A stretch of DNA of 64,000 bases. It comes from an uncultured Alphaproteobacteria bacterium. Its GTDB lineage: Bacteria; Pseudomonadota; Alphaproteobacteria; HIMB59; GCA-002718135. Below the pieces are notes generated by a model. That model had not been told where the DNA came from and did not search any database. It saw only the letters and a list, made by a program, of their open reading frames with translations. Each line of letters begins with the position of its first letter. The stretch's first letter is position 1. The DNA is taken from the NCBI GenBank assembly GCA_902615625.1, contig CACMPM010000001.1, positions 126,169-190,168 on the forward strand, written 5' to 3'. This document shows positions 1 to 47,967 of the stretch, in pieces. The position numbers were made by a program, and so were the translations under genes.

Positions 1-179
1 TAACTTCATATAAATTTAATACAATGATTGCTGAACATTTTTTTTGTAGGATTTGTGGTATATACACTCATCACAATAGGAGAAGTGATCCAAATGGTGC
101 TGCAGTAAACATAGGTTGCATAGATGCAATTGATCCTTTTGAATACAATGCTGATTTTATTGATATGAAAAATAAATAA
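1..179 (+). CDS. GFA-family protein (Mss4-like zinc fold), C-terminal fragment
   Basis: Only the last 58 codons are in the window, read in the frame that begins at base 3 and stops with TAA at 177-179. The visible tail has a CRICG zinc-ligand pair, then THHNRRSDPNG and VNIGCID, the usual ending of the glutathione-dependent formaldehyde-activating (GFA) / Mss4-like family. These proteins bind zinc, and some are linked to aldehyde-glutathione adducts, though many members have no proven activity. It ends 4 bp before iolC on the same strand, so it may belong to the same transcript. Family assignment is good; the substrate is unknown. Confidence 0.75.
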   Translation, partial: TSYKFNTMIAEHFFCRICGIYTHHNRRSDPNGAAVNIGCIDAIDPFEYNADFIDMKNK

Positions 180-183
180 TTCT

Positions 184-1170
184 ATGTCATTTGAATTTTT
201 AATTTCTAAAATTCAAAAAAATAATTTTTTACTTATAGGAAGAGCAGGAGTGGATATATACCCTGACCCACCAGGAACAAAAACTGAAAATGCTAAATCA
301 TTTGTTACTCATCTGGGAGGATCTTCTGCAAATATGGGTGTTCAATTAACTCTGTTTGGTGGTAATTGTAACTTACTCACCCGAGTCTCTGACGATGCTT
401 TAGGCAGATTTGCAATTAATCAACTAAATCATTATGGTGTTAAGAATAAATTAGTAAAATTTGAAAAAAATGAAACAAGAATTTCATTTGCTATAGTTGA
501 AACCACAGTTAAAGATCATCAATCAATTATTTACAGACATAAAGCTTCTGATTTATTTTTAAATAAAGATGATATTGAGAATGCTAATATACAAAACTTT
601 GATTGTCTATTAATTACCGGAACTTCTCTAGCAGCTGAACCTTCAAGGAGTGCTACTTTATATGCTTTAGATATAGCAAATAAAAATAATATTCCTGTAA
701 TTATGGATATTGATTATAGACCATATACTTGGGAATCATCAAATAAAGCAAAAGAAGTTTATAATTTAGCAGTAAATAAATGTAGTGGTGTAATTGGAAA
801 TGATGATGAGTTTGGAGTATTAGCTGGTGATTACAATAATGGTTTGGATCATGCTAAACAATTAGCAAAAAATGTAAGCTTAATTATTTATAAAAAAGGT
901 GAAAAAGGTTCTATTACTTTTGCAATGAATAAAGAAATAAAAAAAGGTATATTTCCCGTAAAACCTTTAAAACCAACTGGAGCTGGTGATGCATTTATGG
1001 GATCATTAATAGGATCAATGTTAAAGGCTAATGATTTAGAAAAATCTATAGAGATAGGTTCAGCCGCAGCAGCAATTGTAGTAACAAAAGTTGGTTGTGC
1101 ACCAGCAATGCCTAATTTGAATGAAATTTTGGAGTTTATCAAATATAATAAAATTAATGAAGGAGAATAA
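184..1170 (+). CDS. iolC: 5-dehydro-2-deoxygluconokinase-like PfkB sugar kinase
   Basis: A 328-residue PfkB/ribokinase-fold kinase. The N-terminal GRAGVDIYP (residues 19-27) is characteristic of IolC, which phosphorylates 2-deoxy-5-keto-gluconate in myo-inositol breakdown. The substrate-side GGSSAN (45-50) and the anion hole and catalytic-base motif GAGDAF (266-271) are intact. The ATG at 184 follows the GFA stop by 4 bp. It is the first complete gene of a tight operon with iolB and an IolJ-like aldolase 1 bp and 844 bp downstream. No iolD, iolE or iolG is next to it, so a complete inositol pathway cannot be shown from this window. Cytoplasmic. Confident for family, fairly confident for IolC. 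Confidence 0.83.
   Translation: MSFEFLISKIQKNNFLLIGRAGVDIYPDPPGTKTENAKSFVTHLGGSSANMGVQLTLFGGNCNLLTRVSDDALGRFAINQLNHYGVKNKLVKFEKNETRISFAIVETTVKDHQSIIYRHKASDLFLNKDDIENANIQNFDCLLITGTSLAAEPSRSATLYALDIANKNNIPVIMDIDYRPYTWESSNKAKEVYNLAVNKCSGVIGNDDEFGVLAGDYNNGLDHAKQLAKNVSLIIYKKGEKGSITFAMNKEIKKGIFPVKPLKPTGAGDAFMGSLIGSMLKANDLEKSIEIGSAAAAIVVTKVGCAPAMPNLNEILEFIKYNKINEGE
1161..1165 (+). promoter_or_regulatory. Ribosome binding site that fixes the iolB start
   Basis: AGGAG at 1161-1165 lies 6 bp before the ATG at 1172. An upstream in-frame ATG at 1121 is inside iolC and lacks such a site, so 1172 is chosen. The site itself lies in the last codons of iolC, which suggests translational coupling. Confidence 0.7.
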
Positions 1171-1171
1171 T

Positions 1172-2014
1172 ATGCATATTCCACCATTTGATAATAAGAA
1201 CAAGCCAATTGTAGATATTGAAGACAGTAGAGTTCCTTTAAATTATTTTAACATTGTAAAATTAAATAAAGATCAATCTTTTGAATATCAAACACCTGGT
1301 TATGAAACATGTATAGTGCCTGCTACTGGAACAATTAATGTAGAAATTGAAGGAATAAAAGTTGAGTCATTAGGCACTAGAACAGTTGATGTGTGGGATG
1401 GAGAACCAGAAGGTGTTTATGTTCCGTCTAACACAAAAGCTCAATTTACATCTTTAGTCGATAATTCAGAAATTTTTATTGCTGGTGCAAAGTATGATAA
1501 AACGCTGGAACCATTTGCTGTTCGAGCAAATGAAATTGATTTAGTTCAGTATGGCTCAGATGATACAAAAACTCATAGAAAAATTAAACATATTCTAGGT
1601 GCTAAGCATCACGATAAAGTTGGAAGATTGCTTTGTAATGAACTTTATACAGTGGGACAGGGAGGTTGGTCGGGGTTTCCACCTCATAAGCATGATACAG
1701 ATCGTCTGCCTGATGAAACTAGACACGATGAAACATATAATTACAGATTTAAACCTAATAATGGATTTGGTTTTCAGATGTTTCAGCAAGTTGATGATAA
1801 AGTTGGGAAAGCTGAACATATAATTGATGGCTCAACCATTATGATTAGAACGGGCTATCATCCTTGTGTTGTGGCACCAGGGTATGAGATGTATTATTTC
1901 ACAATTCTTGGCGGACTATCTCAAAGATCTCTTGTGCAATTTTTTCAACCTGAACATGCATATCAAGTTGAGACCATTCCTGGCATTAAAGATATGATTG
2001 CTAAATATAAATGA
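1172..2014 (+). CDS. iolB: 5-deoxy-glucuronate isomerase
   Basis: A 280-residue protein of the KduI/IolB cupin superfamily. In inositol catabolism IolB converts 5-deoxy-glucuronate to 2-deoxy-5-keto-gluconate, the substrate of the kinase encoded just upstream. The double-cupin family pattern is visible: SGFPPHKHD (metal-ligand histidines near 172-174), the DETYNYRF and GFGFQ segment, and TGYHPCVVAPGYEMYY near 228-242. The start at 1172 is set by an AGGAG 6 bp upstream. It overlaps the next gene by 4 bp (ATGA), which indicates translational coupling. Length matches the family (about 270). Confidence 0.85.
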   Translation: MHIPPFDNKNKPIVDIEDSRVPLNYFNIVKLNKDQSFEYQTPGYETCIVPATGTINVEIEGIKVESLGTRTVDVWDGEPEGVYVPSNTKAQFTSLVDNSEIFIAGAKYDKTLEPFAVRANEIDLVQYGSDDTKTHRKIKHILGAKHHDKVGRLLCNELYTVGQGGWSGFPPHKHDTDRLPDETRHDETYNYRFKPNNGFGFQMFQQVDDKVGKAEHIIDGSTIMIRTGYHPCVVAPGYEMYYFTILGGLSQRSLVQFFQPEHAYQVETIPGIKDMIAKYK

Positions 2015-2844
2015 CAGCAGTAAATTTAAAAACTTTACTAACTAAAGCTAATCGTAATAATTATTCTGTAGCTGGACTAGTTGTAATTTGTTGGGAAGAT
2101 GCTATTGCTTACACAGAGGCTGCACATGAAACAAAAATTCCAATTATTTTACAAGCAGGACCTTCTTGTAGACAATACACTCCTGTTTCTATTTTGGGAA
2201 AAATGTTTAGACATCTTGCTGAACAAACTAAAACGCCTATTTGTTGTCATTTAGATCATGGATTTTCATATGATGAATGTATCGAAGGAATAGAATCTGG
2301 TTTTACATCAGTAATGTTCGACGGATCAAAACTTCCATTAAATAAAAATATCAAAATTAGCTCTAAAATATCAAATATTGCTCATAAACATAATGTTTCA
2401 GTTGAGGGGGAGGTAGGTATAGTTGGCTATCATAATGGTAATAATTCTTTTGGGACAGATATTGAGGAAGCAAAAAAATATAGTTTAGAGAGTGGAGTCG
2501 ATGCTATGGCAATATCAGTTGGTAATACACATTTACAACAATCAAAGATAGCAAAAATAGATTATAATAAAATTTTAAAAATTCAAAAAATATCAAAACT
2601 ACCTTTAGTTTTACATGGTAGTAGTGGTATAAATTCTAATATGAGAAAAAAAATAGCAAGAAACACGAAAGTAGCTAAACTTAACATAGGAACCGAATTA
2701 AGAATAACAGCATGTAAAAGTTTAAGACAAAGTTATAATAAAAAAAAATCAAGTTTTGATAAAATAGAAATAATAAAACCTTCTATAATTGAATTGAAAA
2801 AACATACAAAAAAAATAATAAAAAATATTGGGCCAATATTATGA
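2011..2844 (+). CDS. iolJ: Class II ketose-bisphosphate aldolase, IolJ-like
   Basis: A 277-residue zinc aldolase of the fructose-bisphosphate / tagatose-bisphosphate / IolJ family. Visible motifs are HLDHG (80-84; catalytic Asp82 and zinc His83), EGEVGIVG (132-139), GNTH (171-174), LHGSSG (201-206) and the phosphate-binding NIGTEL (225-230). Next to iolC and iolB the natural role is cleavage of 2-deoxy-5-keto-gluconate 6-phosphate to dihydroxyacetone phosphate (DHAP) and malonate semialdehyde. It overlaps iolB and mtnP by 4 bp each. Sequence alone does not separate IolJ from other ketose-bisphosphate aldolases, so the symbol rests on context. Confidence 0.75.
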   Translation: MTAVNLKTLLTKANRNNYSVAGLVVICWEDAIAYTEAAHETKIPIILQAGPSCRQYTPVSILGKMFRHLAEQTKTPICCHLDHGFSYDECIEGIESGFTSVMFDGSKLPLNKNIKISSKISNIAHKHNVSVEGEVGIVGYHNGNNSFGTDIEEAKKYSLESGVDAMAISVGNTHLQQSKIAKIDYNKILKIQKISKLPLVLHGSSGINSNMRKKIARNTKVAKLNIGTELRITACKSLRQSYNKKKSSFDKIEIIKPSIIELKKHTKKIIKNIGPIL

Positions 2845-3725
2845 ATGTCTTAGGCTTTATTGGTGGAAGTGGAATTTATAAACTAGAATTTTTAACTGAA
2901 ATAAAAGAACATCAAATTAAATCTTCATTTGGCGAACCCTCAGGTCCAATTATTGAAGGTAAAATAGATAATAACACTGTATATTTTTTATCTCGTCATG
3001 GAGAAGGCCATACTTTGTCACCATCTTCCATTAACTATTGTGCTAATATTGATTGTTTAAAACAAGTTGGTGTAACCGATTTGATATCTCTTTCAGCTGT
3101 AGGTTCTTTAAAAGATAATTTAAAACCAGGTACATTTGTTATTGTTGATCAGTTTATAGATAGAACAATAAACAGAAAAAAAAGTTTTTTTGATAAAGGA
3201 ATAGTTGCTCATGTTCCTATGGCTCATCCAACATGTGAAGTTTTGATGAATTTGTCAAAAAATATATGTGAAAATATTAAAATCAATTACTCATTTGGTG
3301 GCACATATCTTGCAATGGAAGGACCTCAGTTTTCAACTTATGCTGAGTCAAATCTTTATATTGATTGGGGTTGTGATGTTGTAGGAATGACAAATATGCC
3401 AGAAGCAAAATTAGCAAGAGAAGCGGAAATTAGATATTGCTCTATTTCCATGGTTACGGATTATGATTGCTGGCATCCAGATCATGATAAAGTAGATTTA
3501 AGTATGATTATAAAAACCTTAAATGATAATGTTGATAATTCAAAAAATTTTATTAAAAATTTTAGCTCAAAATACTATGAAGGTGTATCTTTTGAAAATG
3601 ATAATACATCCAATATTTTAGATACATCTATAATTACAAAAAAAGAATTTTGGGATAAGAACTTAGAGAATAATTTATCCAATATATTAAAAAGATATAA
3701 GAAAAATTCTAATGCTAGTAAATGA
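2841..3725 (+). CDS. mtnP: S-methyl-5'-thioadenosine phosphorylase
   Basis: A 294-residue purine nucleoside phosphorylase of the MTAP class, which splits 5'-methylthioadenosine with phosphate into adenine and 5-methylthioribose 1-phosphate; the class can also take 5'-deoxyadenosine. Visible are the phosphate site GGSG (8-11), the SRHGEGHTLSP segment (51-61), SAVGSL (85-90), MEGPQFST (159-166), and TDYDCW (206-211), where two aspartates (207 and 209) mark preference for a 6-aminopurine over a 6-oxopurine. It overlaps the upstream aldolase by 4 bp and mtnA by 14 bp. Cytoplasmic. The family call is firm. Confidence 0.88.
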   Translation: MNVLGFIGGSGIYKLEFLTEIKEHQIKSSFGEPSGPIIEGKIDNNTVYFLSRHGEGHTLSPSSINYCANIDCLKQVGVTDLISLSAVGSLKDNLKPGTFVIVDQFIDRTINRKKSFFDKGIVAHVPMAHPTCEVLMNLSKNICENIKINYSFGGTYLAMEGPQFSTYAESNLYIDWGCDVVGMTNMPEAKLAREAEIRYCSISMVTDYDCWHPDHDKVDLSMIIKTLNDNVDNSKNFIKNFSSKYYEGVSFENDNTSNILDTSIITKKEFWDKNLENNLSNILKRYKKNSNASK

Positions 3726-4791
3726 TAAACATTTAACAACTATTTGGTATGATAAAGCTAGAGAAGTTGTAAAAATAATAGATCAAAGGCTTCTACCATT
3801 TGAATTAAAGATTGTAGAATTAAAAACATTAGAAGATTTTTGTTTTGCTATTAAAGAAATGCAAGTCAGGGGTGCTCCCCTAATAGGTGTCACTGCTGCA
3901 TATGGAATGTATGTAGCATCTAAAACTACTAAAAATTTTTCAGAATTAGAAAAAGCAGGTGATAGTCTTAAGTCAACGAGACCCACAGCAGTTAATTTAT
4001 CCTGGGCTGTAGATAAAATTATTACTAAGATTAAAGATATGGAAAAATCTAACTTTCAGGAAATAATTCTTTCAATTGCAAATGAGATCAGAGATCAAGA
4101 TATAGTCAATTGCAAAACTATAGGTGAAAATGGATCTAAACTTATTGAAAATATTTACAAAAAAACACAAAAAAAAGTAAATGTTTTGACTCACTGTAAT
4201 GCTGGGTGGTTAGCTGCTGTTGACTGGGGAACTGCATTAGCACCAATATTTATTGCAAATCAAAAAAAAATCCCAATACATGTTTGGATTGATGAAACCA
4301 GACCTAGAAATCAAGGTTTCAGTCTTACAGCTTGGGAATTAATGCATGAAAAGATAGAAAATTCATTAATCGTAGACAACGTTGGCGGTCATCTAATGCA
4401 AAATGGCATGATAGATCTTTGTATAACTGGAACAGACAGAACCTCTTTAAATGGTGATGTTTGCAATAAAATTGGCACATACTTAAAGGCTCTAGCTGCA
4501 AAAGATAATGATATTCCTTTTTACGTTGCAGCTCCAATTTCTAGTATAGATTTTAATATTAAAAACGGAGTAAAAGAAATACCTATAGAAGAAAGAGATC
4601 CAGACGAAGTATCCATTATTGAAGGTATTGACGAAAATAATAATAGAAAGAAAATTAAAATTATACCTGAAGGTTCAAACTGTAAAAACTATGCTTTTGA
4701 TATAACTCCAGCAAAATATATTACTAAATTGATTACAGAAAAAGGAGTTGTAGATAGCAATGAAGAATCTATAAGTGGATTAAAAAATTAA
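3712..4791 (+). CDS. mtnA: 5-methylthioribose-1-phosphate isomerase
   Basis: A 359-residue eIF2B-like aldose-ketose isomerase converting 5-methylthioribose 1-phosphate to 5-methylthioribulose 1-phosphate; homologues also isomerise 5-deoxyribose 1-phosphate. Key residues are present: RGAP (53-56), catalytic Cys162 in HCNAGW, ETRPRNQG (195-202), catalytic Asp242 in TGTDR, and NGDVCNKIGTY (247-257). The ATG at 3712 lies inside mtnP. The next gene starts 1 bp after the stop. No mtnB, mtnC or mtnD, which would complete the usual methionine salvage pathway, is in the window. Confidence 0.9.
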   Translation: MLVNDKHLTTIWYDKAREVVKIIDQRLLPFELKIVELKTLEDFCFAIKEMQVRGAPLIGVTAAYGMYVASKTTKNFSELEKAGDSLKSTRPTAVNLSWAVDKIITKIKDMEKSNFQEIILSIANEIRDQDIVNCKTIGENGSKLIENIYKKTQKKVNVLTHCNAGWLAAVDWGTALAPIFIANQKKIPIHVWIDETRPRNQGFSLTAWELMHEKIENSLIVDNVGGHLMQNGMIDLCITGTDRTSLNGDVCNKIGTYLKALAAKDNDIPFYVAAPISSIDFNIKNGVKEIPIEERDPDEVSIIEGIDENNNRKKIKIIPEGSNCKNYAFDITPAKYITKLITEKGVVDSNEESISGLKN

Positions 4792-4792
4792 T

Positions 4793-6805
4793 ATGAAAAA
4801 TGAGTGGAAAGAAAGTTTAGCTAAAAAATATATTAAAGAATATCAGTTAAAGAAAGTCAGAAAAGATTTAGCATTAAGAATATATTCAACGCATTTATTA
4901 GGTAATAATCCCGAACTTGTTTTACATGGAGGAGGCAATACATCTGTAAAATCAATTAAAAAAAATTTATTTGGAAAAGATAACGATGTACTTTTTGTAA
5001 AAGGAAGTGGATGGGATATGTCAAACCTAAGCGAAAGAGGATTGCCAGGTCTGTATCTTGATCCTTTACTTAAAACTCTATCTTTAAAAAAAATGAGTGA
5101 TGAAAAGATGGTTAATTATTTGAGATCTAACTTACTTGACTCCAGTTCTCCTAATCCATCAATTGAAACTCTTTTACATGCTTATTTACCATTTAAATAT
5201 GTAGATCATACACATTCAAATGCGATTTTAAGTTTAGTCAATCTAGATAATTCAAAAGAAATATTAAATAAAATTTATAAAGATAAAATAGCAATAGTTC
5301 CCTACGTAATGCCAGGATTTGAACTTGCTAAATTATGTCATATGGTAATTTCAAAAAATCATAAAGTTGAAGGATTAATACTTTTAAATCATGGCATTTT
5401 CACTTTTGGAAGTTCAGCAAAACAAAGTTATGATAGAATGATTAAGCTTGTAACATTAGCTGAAAATTTTTTAAATAAGCAAAAAAAATTAATAAAATAC
5501 AATATTTATAACAAAAAAATAAATATTACTGATGTTCAGCTATGTATTAGAAATTTATACCATTACTTTACAAACAAAAGATGGATAATTAAATTTAATA
5601 ATAATGTTGAAGATGTAAAATTTACAAATCGAAAAGATTTATTTAATTTATTTAATAAAGGACCTGTTACGCCTGATCATGTTATCAGAATAAAATCAGA
5701 ACCATTAATAATACCCAATAAACATTTATCATCTAGCAAAATGATATCTAATCATATTAATGTATATATTAAAAAATATAAAAATTATTTTAAAAAATAT
5801 AAAAAAAATATTACAAATTCCAAAATTGCTGATCCTTTACCAAGAATTATTATTTTAGAAGGAATAGGTTTTCTATCAATAGGTATTAATAAAAAAGAAA
5901 TGCAAGTTTCCTACGATATATTTGATGCAATGAAAAAAGTTATAATTAAAGCAAATTTAGTTTCAAAATTTAAATCAATTAACAATACAGATATTTTTAA
6001 AATGGAATACTGGCCATTAGAAAGAGCAAAATTGAATAATCAAAATACAAAAAAATTTAATGGAAATGTTGCAGTAATTACAGGTGGAGCTGGAAAAATT
6101 GGAAGTGCGATTGCAAATAAATTTATAAATGAAAATATTGAAGTTATACTTTTAGATAAAAACTTTAAAAATCTTGATATAAATATTAAAAAGAAATGTC
6201 TATGTATTGTATGTGATTTAACTAATAATTCTCAAATTAATAAAGCATTAAATAAGATATTAAAATTATTTGGCGGTATAGATATTCTAATTGCAAATTC
6301 TGGTGCTGCATTTCAAGGTAGTATGCTAAATGTAAAAAAAGATATTTTGGAAAAAAGTTTAGAGGTAAATTTTTATAGTCATCATAACATAGTTCAAAAA
6401 ATTGCAAATATTATGGTATCACAAGGTTTGGGAGGTTCCATTTCTCTTAATTTGTCAAAACAATCTATAAATCCTGGTAAGAATTTTGGACCATATGGTA
6501 TCGCAAAAGCTAGCTCATTATTTTCTATGAAACAATATGCTTTAGAATTTGGAAAATATAATATTCGGGTTAATGGAATTAATGCTGATCGTATAAAAAG
6601 TGGTTTATTAACTGATCAGTTTATTAAAGAAAGAGCAAAAGCTAGAAATATGTCTTCTACTGAATATTTAAATAATAATTTACTTCAAAAGCAAGTGACT
6701 GCAGAAGATGTTGCTGAAGCATTTTTTGCTCAATTATCCTTTGAAAAAACAACTGGGAATATTATTACTGTTGATGGAGGTAATATTGAGGCTAGTTTAA
6801 GATAG
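4793..6805 (+). CDS. Class II aldolase / short-chain dehydrogenase fusion (RhaD-ADH type)
   Basis: A 670-residue two-domain enzyme. Residues about 20-400 form a class II aldolase/adducin domain with GGGNTS (46-51), acidic Glu125, zinc ligands His139 and His141 in DHTHSNA, and His200 in LLNHGIF. Residues about 424-670 form a classical SDR with GGAGKIG (431-437), NSGAA (502-506), Ser555 and the YGIAK pair Tyr568/Lys572. The architecture matches the rhamnulose-1-phosphate aldolase/alcohol dehydrogenase fusion family. Placed directly after mtnP-mtnA, it may instead cleave 5-methylthioribulose (or 5-deoxyribulose) 1-phosphate to DHAP and an aldehyde that the SDR then converts. Domain calls are firm; substrate is inferred. 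Confidence 0.82.
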   Translation: MKNEWKESLAKKYIKEYQLKKVRKDLALRIYSTHLLGNNPELVLHGGGNTSVKSIKKNLFGKDNDVLFVKGSGWDMSNLSERGLPGLYLDPLLKTLSLKKMSDEKMVNYLRSNLLDSSSPNPSIETLLHAYLPFKYVDHTHSNAILSLVNLDNSKEILNKIYKDKIAIVPYVMPGFELAKLCHMVISKNHKVEGLILLNHGIFTFGSSAKQSYDRMIKLVTLAENFLNKQKKLIKYNIYNKKINITDVQLCIRNLYHYFTNKRWIIKFNNNVEDVKFTNRKDLFNLFNKGPVTPDHVIRIKSEPLIIPNKHLSSSKMISNHINVYIKKYKNYFKKYKKNITNSKIADPLPRIIILEGIGFLSIGINKKEMQVSYDIFDAMKKVIIKANLVSKFKSINNTDIFKMEYWPLERAKLNNQNTKKFNGNVAVITGGAGKIGSAIANKFINENIEVILLDKNFKNLDINIKKKCLCIVCDLTNNSQINKALNKILKLFGGIDILIANSGAAFQGSMLNVKKDILEKSLEVNFYSHHNIVQKIANIMVSQGLGGSISLNLSKQSINPGKNFGPYGIAKASSLFSMKQYALEFGKYNIRVNGINADRIKSGLLTDQFIKERAKARNMSSTEYLNNNLLQKQVTAEDVAEAFFAQLSFEKTTGNIITVDGGNIEASLR

Positions 6806-7222
6806 GTGTTATTAAAATTTTTAGAAAAACTTGGAAGAAAGAAAATTGTTCTAGATAGAGGACCATCTCATCCAGAATTTCATAAAGCAAAACCATGGAT
6901 GGAAAGATACTACCTATTATTTAGAAAAAGACCAAAATGGTTTCCATTTAATATCCTGATTCATAAAATGCTAGATGATGATCACGGTGAAGGAGTTCAT
7001 AACCATCTTTGTCCATATATTACAATTATTTTAAAAGGCGGTTATTGGGAAACAACAAAAAAAGGAAAATTTTGGAGATCCCCTGGATACATCGGTTTTA
7101 GGTCTGCAGATCATTTGCACAGAGTTGACTTAAAACCTAATACAAACACAATGACATTATTTATTCCCGGACCTTTTGGTTTTAGAAAAAATAAAAGAGC
7201 TGATTATAAAACAAAAATATAA
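6806..7222 (+). CDS. Small cupin-fold protein of unknown function
   Basis: 138 residues starting at a GTG that directly abuts the stop of the aldolase-dehydrogenase gene; there is no room for a separate ribosome site, so it is probably coupled. A single cupin-like barrel is suggested by HNHLCPYITIILKGGYWE (His65 and His67) and a later DHLHRVDL (His103, His105), giving a plausible metal site. The tail with TLFIPGPFGFRK resembles uncharacterised cupins that end in a TLV-x-G-P pattern. It is the last gene of the iol-mtn operon. It could be a dioxygenase, isomerase or binding protein for the pathway; it lacks the HxHxxxE pattern of acireductone dioxygenase. Confidence 0.7.
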   Translation: MLLKFLEKLGRKKIVLDRGPSHPEFHKAKPWMERYYLLFRKRPKWFPFNILIHKMLDDDHGEGVHNHLCPYITIILKGGYWETTKKGKFWRSPGYIGFRSADHLHRVDLKPNTNTMTLFIPGPFGFRKNKRADYKTKI

Positions 7223-17533: not shown

Positions 17534-18193
17534 ATGAGTGAAACATTTGAAATTGCAAGAAAAAATATGGTTGCTAATCAGTTGAGACCAAACAAGATTA
17601 ATGAAGAAAATATCTTACAAATATTTGAAAATACTCCTAAAGAAAATTATTTAGATGTAAGCTTAGGTAAGAATTGTTACCTAGATAATAATTTAGATAT
17701 AACTGAGAAAAGAGGATATCTTAAAAATTTACACCTAGCTCAAATTATAAAATATTCGAAAATTTTACCTAATGATAAAGTATTGCACATAGGTGGCTTA
17801 ACGGGCTACTTTTCTGCGCTAATTAGTTCACTATGTAAAGAACTTCATGTTGTAGAAGAAAATAGAGAACTATTTAAATTATTAGAACAAAATATTAACA
17901 ATACTGATAATACTAATATTAGTTTATTTAATCATAATTTATTAGATGGATTATCTGATAAAGCTCCATTTAGTTTAATTATTATTGACGGACCTATATT
18001 TAAAATAACTGATAAGTTAAAGAATCAACTAGCAATGAATGGAGGAAGGTTAATATATATTAAAAAAATATATGATAATTTGGGTAAAGCTTATAAAATT
18101 ATAAGAAATGAAGATTTGTATTCATCTAAGTATTTATTTGATGTAATGAGTAGTTATCAAATTCAAGAACAACAAGAGGATTTTAAATTTTAA
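17534..18193 (+). CDS. PIMT-like methyltransferase, degenerate (protein-L-isoaspartate methyltransferase family)
   Basis: A 219-residue protein of the Pcm (L-isoaspartyl methyltransferase) family by its N-terminal helix ARKNMVANQLRP and a Rossmann-like core. The SAM-binding motif is degraded: the usual VLEIGTGSGY is VLHIGGLTGY (acidic residue replaced by His), and the active-site ISQP segment is replaced by ITEKRGYLKN. The copy at 40512-41138 keeps both motifs. It directly abuts the tolC gene, and pcm-like, tolC, DUF2497 and valS keep the order seen in other alphaproteobacteria. Activity as a repair enzyme is doubtful; a structural or altered role is possible. Confidence 0.75.
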   Translation: MSETFEIARKNMVANQLRPNKINEENILQIFENTPKENYLDVSLGKNCYLDNNLDITEKRGYLKNLHLAQIIKYSKILPNDKVLHIGGLTGYFSALISSLCKELHVVEENRELFKLLEQNINNTDNTNISLFNHNLLDGLSDKAPFSLIIIDGPIFKITDKLKNQLAMNGGRLIYIKKIYDNLGKAYKIIRNEDLYSSKYLFDVMSSYQIQEQQEDFKF

Positions 18194-19483
18194 ATGAGAT
18201 TATTTATATTATTATTATTATTACTTATTTATTCCAAATCTATATTTGCTCTATCGATTGATGATTCTGTAAAAAGTACGATTGAAAATAATTTGAAAGT
18301 AAAAATTGCTTTTGAAAAACTTAATGAAAGCAAAGAAACCATTGAGGTAGCTATAGGCAAAAAACTTCCAACAGTTACTGGCACAATTTCTGGTACATAT
18401 AGTAATAATGATACAACATCAGCAGCTGGTGTATCAACAACACCAGAGACTTTTACAGATAAATATAAAATTAGTATTACTCAAAATTTGTATGATGGCG
18501 GTGAAAAAAATTTAGAAATAGAAAGATCAAAAATTATTTACGAAAATGCAGTTATAAACTTTTATAAAACAGTTCAAGATTTATCGCTAACAGCTGTAGA
18601 AGGTTATTTAACCGTAATAAATTATGAAAAATCATTAGAGGCTTCTGAAAAAAATTTTGATTCTGTTTCTAGATTTTTAGAAGAAGTTAAATTAAAATAT
18701 GAATTGGGATCAGCAACCATAACTGAATTGAAAAATGCTGAGAGTGCTTTTTCAATTGCTGAAACAAATCTTTTTTCAGCCGAACAAAATTACAAAGTCA
18801 GTTTAAAAACATTTAAATCAATTGTTGGTAAAGAAGCTAATAATTTAGAAGATTATGTAAATATAGAAGAGGATTTGAATTTTGATAACATACTCTCTGA
18901 AATTTATAAGAATAATTTTAATATTTTAATTGCTCAAAATAATATTAAAATTAAAGAACTTGATCTCTCAAAAGAAAAAGGTTCTAATAGACCTACCTTA
19001 GATATAACAGCTTCGACTGAGTATTCGGACGGTTCACGAATAGATGCAGGAAGTGAAAATACCAATGCATCAATAGGCTTAACTTTAACAATTCCAATAT
19101 TTCAGCAAAACATTGATAAATCTGATATTAGAAAAATAAATTCTCAAATTTTACAAACTGAAATTGAGTTAGAGGATCTTAAAGAAAGTTTATATATTGA
19201 GGTATCAAACTATTATAAAAACTATTTAGTTAGTAAATCAAATTTAAATACATCCTTATTAACTATAGAGTATGCAAATACTCTCCTAGAAAGTACTCAG
19301 GAGGAATACAACCTTGGGACAAAATCTATCACTGATCTAATAGAAGCAGAAACTAATCTTTTAAACGTAAATGTGGAATATTTTAATGCAAATAAAAACT
19401 ATCTGATTAATTATTTTAATTTACTAGCTTTAGATACTTCACTGATTAAATTATTTGAGGAGTATCTTCCTAGCTATAATTAG
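18194..19483 (+). CDS. tolC: TolC-family outer membrane efflux protein
   Basis: A 429-residue protein with a Sec signal peptide (about residues 1-19, cut after IFA) and two repeated long alpha-helical segments with heptad character, the hallmark of TolC trimeric tunnels. Recognisable repeats include KYKISITQNLYDGGE and later ASIGLTLTIPIFQQ, plus ELKNAESAFSIAE in the first half and DLIEAETNLLNV in the second. It would form the outer-membrane exit duct for type I secretion and RND efflux. It starts one base after the preceding stop, a conserved alphaproteobacterial pairing. Confidence 0.88.
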   Translation: MRLFILLLLLLIYSKSIFALSIDDSVKSTIENNLKVKIAFEKLNESKETIEVAIGKKLPTVTGTISGTYSNNDTTSAAGVSTTPETFTDKYKISITQNLYDGGEKNLEIERSKIIYENAVINFYKTVQDLSLTAVEGYLTVINYEKSLEASEKNFDSVSRFLEEVKLKYELGSATITELKNAESAFSIAETNLFSAEQNYKVSLKTFKSIVGKEANNLEDYVNIEEDLNFDNILSEIYKNNFNILIAQNNIKIKELDLSKEKGSNRPTLDITASTEYSDGSRIDAGSENTNASIGLTLTIPIFQQNIDKSDIRKINSQILQTEIELEDLKESLYIEVSNYYKNYLVSKSNLNTSLLTIEYANTLLESTQEEYNLGTKSITDLIEAETNLLNVNVEYFNANKNYLINYFNLLALDTSLIKLFEEYLPSYN

Positions 19484-47061: not shown

Positions 47062-47177
47062 AATTATTACACGCAAAGGTAATAATCAATTTAATAAGAG
47101 GAAACGATTATTAAATTGTATCGGGAGGAAATGCACGATACACAAAAGGGACCTAGCTTGCTGGGTCCTTTTTTTTT
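47062..47177 (+). ncRNA. Structured small RNA or leader RNA with intrinsic terminator
   Basis: An approximately 115-nt element between anmK and a deaminase gene. It has three hairpins: CAATTTAATAA / TTATTAAATTG (11 bp) with loop GAGGAAACGA; GTATCG / CGATAC (6 bp) with loop GGAGGAAATGCA; and the terminator hairpin. Both loops show GAGGAAA. It does not match glycine, SAM, purine, TPP or guanidine riboswitch consensus that I can recall. It could be a free sRNA, or an attenuator controlling the deaminase 45 bp later. A 21-codon reading frame beginning at ATG 47131 exists, but the purine run before it is only 2 bp away. Confidence 0.6.
47149..47177 (+). terminator. Rho-independent terminator of the structured RNA
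   Basis: Stem GGACCTAG (47149-47156), loop CTTG, CTGGGTCC (47161-47168) with one G-U pair, and a run of nine T (47169-47177). A classical strong terminator placed 45 bp before the next start. Confidence 0.92.
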
Positions 47178-47794: not shown

Positions 47795-47829
47795 TTGTTA
47801 AAATATAAAAAAAAGTATACAAATAATTA

Positions 47830-47967
47830 ACGGGAGATACTGAAATTTCAGAGCCGAAGGAGCAACGACCCGGAAACTCTCAGGCACAATGGACCGTTAA
47901 AAAAAAACTCTGGAAAAGAGCATTTAGCTCTACCGAAGGTGAAAAGCTCTCAGGTAAAAAGACAGAG
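47830..47967 (+). promoter_or_regulatory. Tandem glycine riboswitch
   Basis: Two aptamers in a row. The first (47830-47897) closes with ACGG/CCGT and contains GAGCCGAAGGAGCAA and ACTCTCAGGCAC. The second (47908-47967) closes with CTCTG/CAGAG and contains CTACCGAAGGTGAAAAG and GCTCTCAGGTA. The GCCGAAGG and CTCTCAGG words are the glycine-aptamer hallmarks. It precedes gcvT. No terminator hairpin follows, so control probably acts on translation of gcvT or by another route; high glycine should turn expression on. Confidence 0.95.

Follow-up and report, generated by a model that had tools for sequence, protein, structure and literature searches.

In the dihydroxyacetone phosphate (DHAP) shunt, or 5-deoxyribose salvage, MtnK or MtnP acts with MtnA and an aldolase, Ald2/DrdA, which is a stand-alone FucA-like protein in the portions of the published accounts available to us; clusters of this kind are also described there from genomes lacking the rest of methionine salvage (PMC6079011, PMC10986504, PMC12632272). 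RhaEW, in the part of its description accessible to us, joins an aldolase and an NAD-dependent lactaldehyde dehydrogenase in one protein, with DHAP being formed and the aldehyde then oxidized (PMC3870299). The catabolism of myo-inositol draws on iolG, E, D, B, C, J, and A. For the HIMB59 order, replacement flexible genomic islands have been described in which alternative gene sets of related function occupy one position; the accessible main text treats them for phosphate and phosphonate genes and mentions neither inositol nor methionine (PMC10734472). The present study concerns a 64,000-nucleotide stretch of DNA (the window) from an uncultured alphaproteobacterium of this order (genome G000, 1.31 Mb in 32 contigs, 88% complete; window at contig C1, positions 126169-190168). 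At one end of this window lies a run of seven genes: iolC, an iolB-like gene, an aldolase gene of the fructose-bisphosphate aldolase (FBA) type, mtnP, mtnA, a gene for an Aldolase_II domain fused to a short-chain dehydrogenase/reductase (SDR), and a short last gene.

Like the DHAP shunt, this locus clusters a phosphorylase, an isomerase, and an Aldolase_II enzyme; its fusion has the domain order of RhaEW, and iolC, an iolB-like gene, and an FBA-type aldolase gene stand together as in myo-inositol catabolism. It differs from the shunt in that the aldolase domain is RhaE-like and joined to an SDR and in that an inositol operon surrounds the module; from RhaEW in that the fusion belongs to a separate clade, has Glu for Asp in the motif S-[IV]-[ED]-T, and is partnered by mtnA instead of rhaI; and from the usual inositol pathway in that the genes are split over several places. 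We consider it likely that the unit comprises two modules, and that the one for S-methyl-5'-thioadenosine (MTA) is a DHAP shunt with a bifunctional aldolase/SDR, exchanged among relatives against a nucleosidase-like version. New here are a form of the shunt in which aldolase and dehydrogenase are fused and the exchange of the cassette; DHAP shunts employing FucA-like aldolases are known, as is the rhamnose fusion. A first, sequence-only reading of this DNA knew of no described operon of such composition; in the open literature, outside which most subscription journals lie, we likewise found none, nor any account of an aldolase/SDR fusion that acts in the disposal of MTA or 5-deoxyribose. A further paper on the HIMB59 group, which reports rhamnose transporters, likewise mentions neither inositol nor methionine in its accessible main text. 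The features of the unit, in window coordinates, are as follows.

1..179, + strand: GFA-family gene (PF04828), 3' end; probably the unit's first gene, ending 4 bp upstream of iolC
184..1170, + strand: iolC, 5-dehydro-2-deoxygluconokinase (TIGR04382, PF00294)
1157..2014, + strand: iolB-like gene, 5-deoxyglucuronate isomerase (PF04962; possible starts at 1121, 1157, and 1172)
2011..2844, + strand: class II FBA-type aldolase, probable IolJ, first gene of the cassette (PF01116, tree, DNA breakpoint)
2841..3725, + strand: mtnP, S-methyl-5'-thioadenosine phosphorylase (TIGR01694)
3712..4791, + strand: mtnA, S-methyl-5-thioribose-1-phosphate isomerase (TIGR00512)
4793..6805, + strand: Aldolase_II/SDR fusion (NF006192; Aldolase_II at about residues 1-228, SDR at about 419-667), proposed as 5-methylthioribulose/5-deoxyribulose 1-phosphate aldolase plus aldehyde dehydrogenase
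6806..7222, + strand: last gene, GTG start, 138-residue protein with no family match
2011..6811, + strand: exchangeable cassette aldolase-mtnP-mtnA-fusion (DNA identity drops at 2011; alignment returns at 6812)

The tight packing described in the sequence-only reading holds, with all seven genes on the + strand and neighbours overlapping by 4, 4, and 14 bp or separated by 1 and 0 bp; the genes may be read as one transcript. Promoter- and terminator-like sites in the unit were no more frequent than in shuffled sequence. The search for the same order in relatives, which that reading had proposed, returned 15 loci conserved through the last gene, the window included, and three more that reach a contig end within the fusion; since 14 further loci share it, the order is not a product of chance or of assembly error. 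The gene order is thus confirmed, but the unit probably starts before iolC, with the PF04828 gene 4 bp upstream. The tail of this gene occupies 3-179 of the window, the entire gene spans 18007-18348 of locus L061, and the gene was also found in 14 further complete loci of the window's type (type A).

Cassette exchange within the genus

In ten loci of relatives, iolC-iolB-aldolase is combined with a short nucleosidase-like gene. These type B loci carry iolC-iolB, a different aldolase (62-66% identical in protein to that of the window), a protein of 175-176 residues, and then the same last gene. The short protein belongs to the phosphorylase superfamily and resembles MTA nucleosidases, although it reaches none of their cut-offs; it may cleave the same nucleosides. 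Among the 37 genomes of the genus, mtnA was found in 11 and the short gene in 16, with both in none and neither found in 10. Of the 11 mtnA genomes, 10 carry a fusion of at least 50% identity, whereas the 16 short-gene genomes carry none (Fisher 1.3e-6); in four of those 10, the copy lies outside the cassette.

The flanks of the two arrangements are close to identical. Compared with the window, the eight closest type B loci show 98-100% identity in iolB and 93-96% in the last gene. At the DNA level, the window matches four type B loci block by block at 87-98% as far as the iolB 3' end, identity then dropping to 60-78% from position 2011; the alignment is regained from 6812 at about 95%. With the type A locus L036, an identity of 91-98% persists through the aldolase. 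On gene trees, module type changes once for the aldolase, eight times for iolB, nine times for iolC, and four times for the last gene, the iolB count being soft because no branch of that tree has an SH-like approximate likelihood ratio test (SH-aLRT) support of at least 95. A total of 41 alignment positions set the two aldolase alleles apart. From the DNA breakpoint and the tree, the aldolase and the MTA genes therefore move as a block: aldolase plus mtnP-mtnA(-fusion) is swapped for aldolase plus the short nucleosidase-like gene among near-identical neighbours.

Elsewhere in the order, two genomes of the other family carry related genes no more than a few kb from the corresponding position, namely mtnP-mtnA in G045 (L107, 8186-10118) and a nucleosidase-like gene in G055 (L112, 7498-8094), as if a similar exchange had taken place there.

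The aldolase/SDR fusion and its association with mtnA

The MTA half rests on three family assignments: MtnP matches TIGR01694 at 275.8 bits (cut-off 274.85), MtnA matches TIGR00512 at 413.1 bits (cut-off 279), and the fusion matches NF006192, a family whose name gives no substrate, at 767.7 bits (cut-off 639), its Aldolase_II domain scoring 69.5 against 22.2 for PF00596. Residues H139, H141, H200, Y568, and K572 of the fusion are invariant in 25 aligned rows, as is E125 in those other than the rhaI-type ones; the roles that we assign to these six positions (acidic residue, metal histidines, etc.) are presumed. In a predicted model (mean predicted local distance difference test, pLDDT, 89.5), the N-terminal part resembles the Thermoplasma aldolase domain 3m4r (Z 32.4, 212 residues, root-mean-square deviation 1.5) and the C-terminal part many SDR chains (Z about 32). 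The PDB fold search with this model listed SDR chains almost exclusively, FucA, RhaD, and DrdA being absent among the best 50 matches listed, and is thus uninformative on kinship.

With these enzymes, MtnP would convert MTA or 5'-deoxyadenosine into adenine and a 1-phosphate sugar, which MtnA would isomerize to the ribulose 1-phosphate. The aldolase domain of the fusion would cleave the MtnA product to DHAP and either 2-(methylthio)acetaldehyde or acetaldehyde, and the SDR domain, by analogy with RhaEW, would oxidize the aldehyde to (methylthio)acetate or acetate; the fusion would thus take over from the usual stand-alone FucA-like Ald2. Exchange of the cassette would then alternate between versions that "cleave and keep the sugar" and "cleave and drop the sugar".

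This proposal draws support from the wider distribution of the fusion. Both mtnA and the fusion were searched in 385 alphaproteobacterial genomes, a close fusion being defined by at least 38% identity. Close fusions are present in 70 of these, of which 66 have mtnA, compared with 116 of the 315 others (Fisher 2.9e-20, kinship ignored). Distant fusions (28-34%) occur in 13 genomes, only three of them with mtnA, two of which also carry a close copy. Positions of mtnA were listed for 51 other genomes (14 had no listed position, and the second pieces of the split fusions in G408 and G421 were omitted, both genomes already being counted): mtnA ends less than 200 bp upstream of the fusion on the same strand in 21 of these 51, and lies within 3 kb in four more. 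Of the set lacking listed positions, locus L217 (G298) combines mtnP, mtnA, and the fusion. In L218 and L220, mtnP directly adjoins the fusion.

Comparison with other mtnA loci indicates what the fusion may stand in for. In all seven loci scanned (L159-L165, chosen for a frame of about 210 residues after mtnA; L166-L168 were not among them), a FucA-like Aldolase_II protein is encoded downstream of mtnA, with FucA-type models scoring best but under cut-off and the MtnB model at 64-76 bits against 137. Five of the seven carry petABC-like genes (labelled by eye) before mtnP. Loci L154 and L155 have the same upstream petABC-like genes, with the fusion at the position of the FucA-like aldolase; hence, the fusion can replace the enzyme for the aldol step of the published shunt. 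In L047, mtnK (TIGR01767, 479 bits) lies upstream of mtnA-fusion, and a single stretch holds mtnK, a nucleoside-hydrolase-like gene, an ABC transporter, mtnA, and the fusion, a gene set that suggests uptake and cleavage of external nucleosides. The nucleoside-hydrolase-like gene there (4739-5683) is on the opposite strand and has a weak RihC match of 47 bits. In a search of plasmids, the closest fusion was that of Rhizobium sp. BG4, about 4 kb from an mtnK-like frame; within 6 kb of the second closest, from Sinorhizobium sp. C101, no query gene was seen.

Canonical methionine salvage was considered for the MTA genes and rejected, as MtnB is over cut-off in none of the 61 genomes searched (with weaker matches in 16, G000 not among them) and MtnD has no match in any of the 61; mtnC was not searched. 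A second nucleoside phosphorylase of the genome (L111), considered as a further MtnP, was likewise rejected, being only 24% identical to MtnP; it lies beside frames that by eye are cytidine-deaminase-like and thymidine-phosphorylase-like.

On balance, we incline to the broader view that fusions of this clade, present in the 70 genomes above, are mainly oxidative DHAP-shunt enzymes yielding (methylthio)acetate and acetate, and that ocean bacteria exchange this version, which retains the sugar carbon, by recombination within an inositol operon for a nucleosidase version that discards it. If true, this would assign a substrate to a large enzyme family whose name carries none, and the routes by which bacteria dispose of S-adenosylmethionine by-products would gain an oxidative branch. 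It would bear on the fate of marine methylthio carbon, i.e., whether this ends in methylthioacetate, methylthioethanol, or methanethiol, and would provide a natural experiment, with some close relatives retaining the nucleoside sugar and others discarding it.

Counter-evidence and rival assignments

Several observations weigh against this assignment. MtnP barely clears its family cut-off. Across the class, 26 of 52 located fusions are distant from mtnA or on another contig, and mtnA-linked fusions are scattered over the tree, with 11 changes, instead of forming one clade. Two subclades of the same superclade adjoin other sugar genes: one (L062, L065, L067) lies in an operon with an FGGY kinase and a glycerol-1-phosphate-dehydrogenase-like protein, the other (L063, L064, L108, L116) with DhaK, Gfo/Idh, and sugar-kinase genes. 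Because such subclades exist, the substrate of the fusion can shift, and because they too exceed the NF006192 cut-off where scanned, a match to this family does not reveal the substrate. The nearly complete genome G037 has a fusion of the sugar-operon type and no mtnA. Within the genus, a third form of the cassette, aldolase-mtnP-mtnA without the fusion, occurs at four loci (L096-L099), and G036 (84% complete) has mtnP-mtnA with no fusion found in the genome. In some genomes, cleavage of the MTA product may fall to the cassette aldolase.

The operon at L062 (10674-18916) and L065 (10094-16031) encodes an SDR, an FGGY kinase, a glycerol-1-phosphate-dehydrogenase-like protein, and an ABC ATPase, together with a fusion that belongs to the superclade of the window fusion. 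In G032, the FGGY operon adjoins the last gene, at the position of the MTA cassette in the window, with its kinase in two overlapping frames. L063 (2980-12206) encodes DhaK, DhaL-like, RpiB-like, two Gfo/Idh-like, and sugar-isomerase-like proteins, a PfkB-type kinase, and the fusion (some labels by eye), and probably specifies another sugar pathway.

The rival that survives best holds that the FBA-type aldolase cleaves the MtnA product, perhaps along with the inositol intermediate, while the fusion serves another sugar. Co-inheritance of this aldolase with mtnP-mtnA, with its single label change against eight for iolB and nine for iolC, speaks for it and against our assignment, as do the 41 positions separating the two alleles and the four loci that lack an adjoining fusion, including the one from G036, in which none was found elsewhere. 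Against this rival, FBA-type aldolases make a configuration other than 3R,4R. The published Ald2/DrdA enzymes are FucA-like in the portions available to us, with the DrdA product inferred there to be 3R,4R; the fusion stands directly behind mtnA in the 21 of 51 genomes noted above and elsewhere occupies the place of the FucA-like aldolase; and of the five genomes whose cassette is shorter, four (G001, G011, G015, G035) hold a fusion elsewhere, mtnA of G011 and the fusion of G035 being interrupted by contig ends. We thus regard this rival as unlikely and retain the fusion as the candidate aldolase for the MtnA product.

Still less probable is that the seven genes form one functional deoxy-sugar pathway. 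Packing is tight, the cassette boundary falls inside the iol genes, and both branches would yield DHAP plus an aldehyde, which is established chemistry for these families.

In our main reading, the inositol half is assigned to a pathway of its own. IolC matches TIGR04382 at 302.2 bits, barely over the cut-off of 300; the IolB-like protein, the sole PF04962 match found in the genome, is over cut-off for that family (253 bits) and under it for TIGR04378 (168.9 against 205); and the FBA-type aldolase matches PF01116, with no NCBIfam model over cut-off and no IolJ-specific model among the matches. IolD is encoded elsewhere in the genome (G000:C12:10555-12378, over cut-off), near a Gfo/Idh protein that has no assignment to IolG; it is over cut-off in 48 of the 61 genomes searched. 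No IolE is over cut-off in G000 (88% complete); it is present in 48 of the 61 genomes, the relatives' iolE also being located away from the iolC-iolB unit. In G037, a single contig of 1.41 Mb, iolC-iolB-aldolase (L106) stands without adjoining MTA genes. From these family matches, the separate iolD, and the G037 module, iolC-iolB-aldolase is best read as part of an ordinary lower inositol pathway spread over the chromosome, in which IolB, IolC, and the FBA-type aldolase would lead to DHAP and malonic semialdehyde.

The sequence-only reading had joined all branches into a combined deoxy-sugar disposal system. Of this, the DHAP-shunt character of mtnP-mtnA-fusion is supported, but a single pathway is not: each half occurs without the other in relatives (mtnA-fusion or mtnP-mtnA-fusion without iolB at L046-L048, L055, and L154-L158), and iolD, as well as the relatives' iolE, lies elsewhere. 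The halves are linked in so far as the FBA-type aldolase shares its inheritance with the MTA genes and not with iolB; the last gene, however, has no such tie to MTA.

A rhamnose role for the fusion was also tried. It matches the rhamnulose model TIGR02632 at 411 bits, under the cut-off of 567.75; eight further close fusions are likewise over cut-off for NF006192 and under it for TIGR02632, with two rhaI-linked fusions showing the reverse. On a tree of 56 of the 107 full-length rows (some genomes recurring under several locus identifiers), four rhaI-linked fusions and three others form a set of seven apart from the other 49, on a long branch with an SH-aLRT support of 100, and the window fusion groups with the mtnA-linked L046-L048; it thus belongs to the mtnA-associated clade and not to the rhaI-linked one. 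The motif reads S[IV]ET in 93 of the 93 close rows having it and S[IV]DT in all 11 distant rows (rows, not genomes), the remaining three of the 107 reading SVEA; we take its acidic residue to be catalytic, as in FucA and RhaD. RhaI (TIGR02629) has no match in G000 (88% complete), other rhamnose isomerases not having been searched. Seven of the 61 genomes have RhaI matches of nearly full length, none of which reaches the curated cut-off; six of these genomes carry a fusion of the 33-35% type, the seventh (G029) being without a full-length fusion. Neither a complete mtnB/C/D set nor a rhamnose pathway, both of which the sequence-only reading had set against its own proposal, thus emerged from the searches made, which did not extend to mtnC, RhaA, or rhamnulokinase. 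The alternative in which the fusion acts as a rhamnulose 1-phosphate aldolase/lactaldehyde dehydrogenase and lies beside mtnA by chance, as its two-domain plan shared with RhaEW, its TIGR02632 match, and rhamnose transporters reported for this bacterial group (in the accessible part of that paper) might suggest, is rejected as highly improbable in view of the unreached cut-off, the missing RhaI match, the separate clade, the Glu motif, and the class-wide link to mtnA.

The last gene and neighbouring features

The sequence-only reading had labelled the last gene a cupin, a label that finds no backing: its product matches nothing in Pfam or NCBIfam, a PDB sequence search gave nothing usable, and the predicted model (pLDDT 42) is too poor to use. 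Matches were found in eight of the 385 genomes, its own included, with three of these matches no better than E about 1e-5. A place in the MTA pathway, e.g., as a methanethiol-releasing cupin, was considered and is not supported, as the gene follows both cassette alleles and in G355 and G266 lies within an unrelated gene group. It is probably unrelated to the mechanism.

At the end of contig C14 of G028 (L029/L059), the fusion gene is split into two oppositely oriented pieces, a probable chimera from single-cell amplification. In L061 (12277-17773), immediately upstream of the window, several extra genes separate acyl-CoA-type genes from the GFA gene, one of them carbamoyltransferase-like by eye; L031 has a gene for 206 residues on the opposite strand there instead. 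Further along the window, an IMES-4 RNA (47063-47142, 100.4 bits) is followed after about 700 bp by a glycine riboswitch (47821-47906, 61.4 bits).

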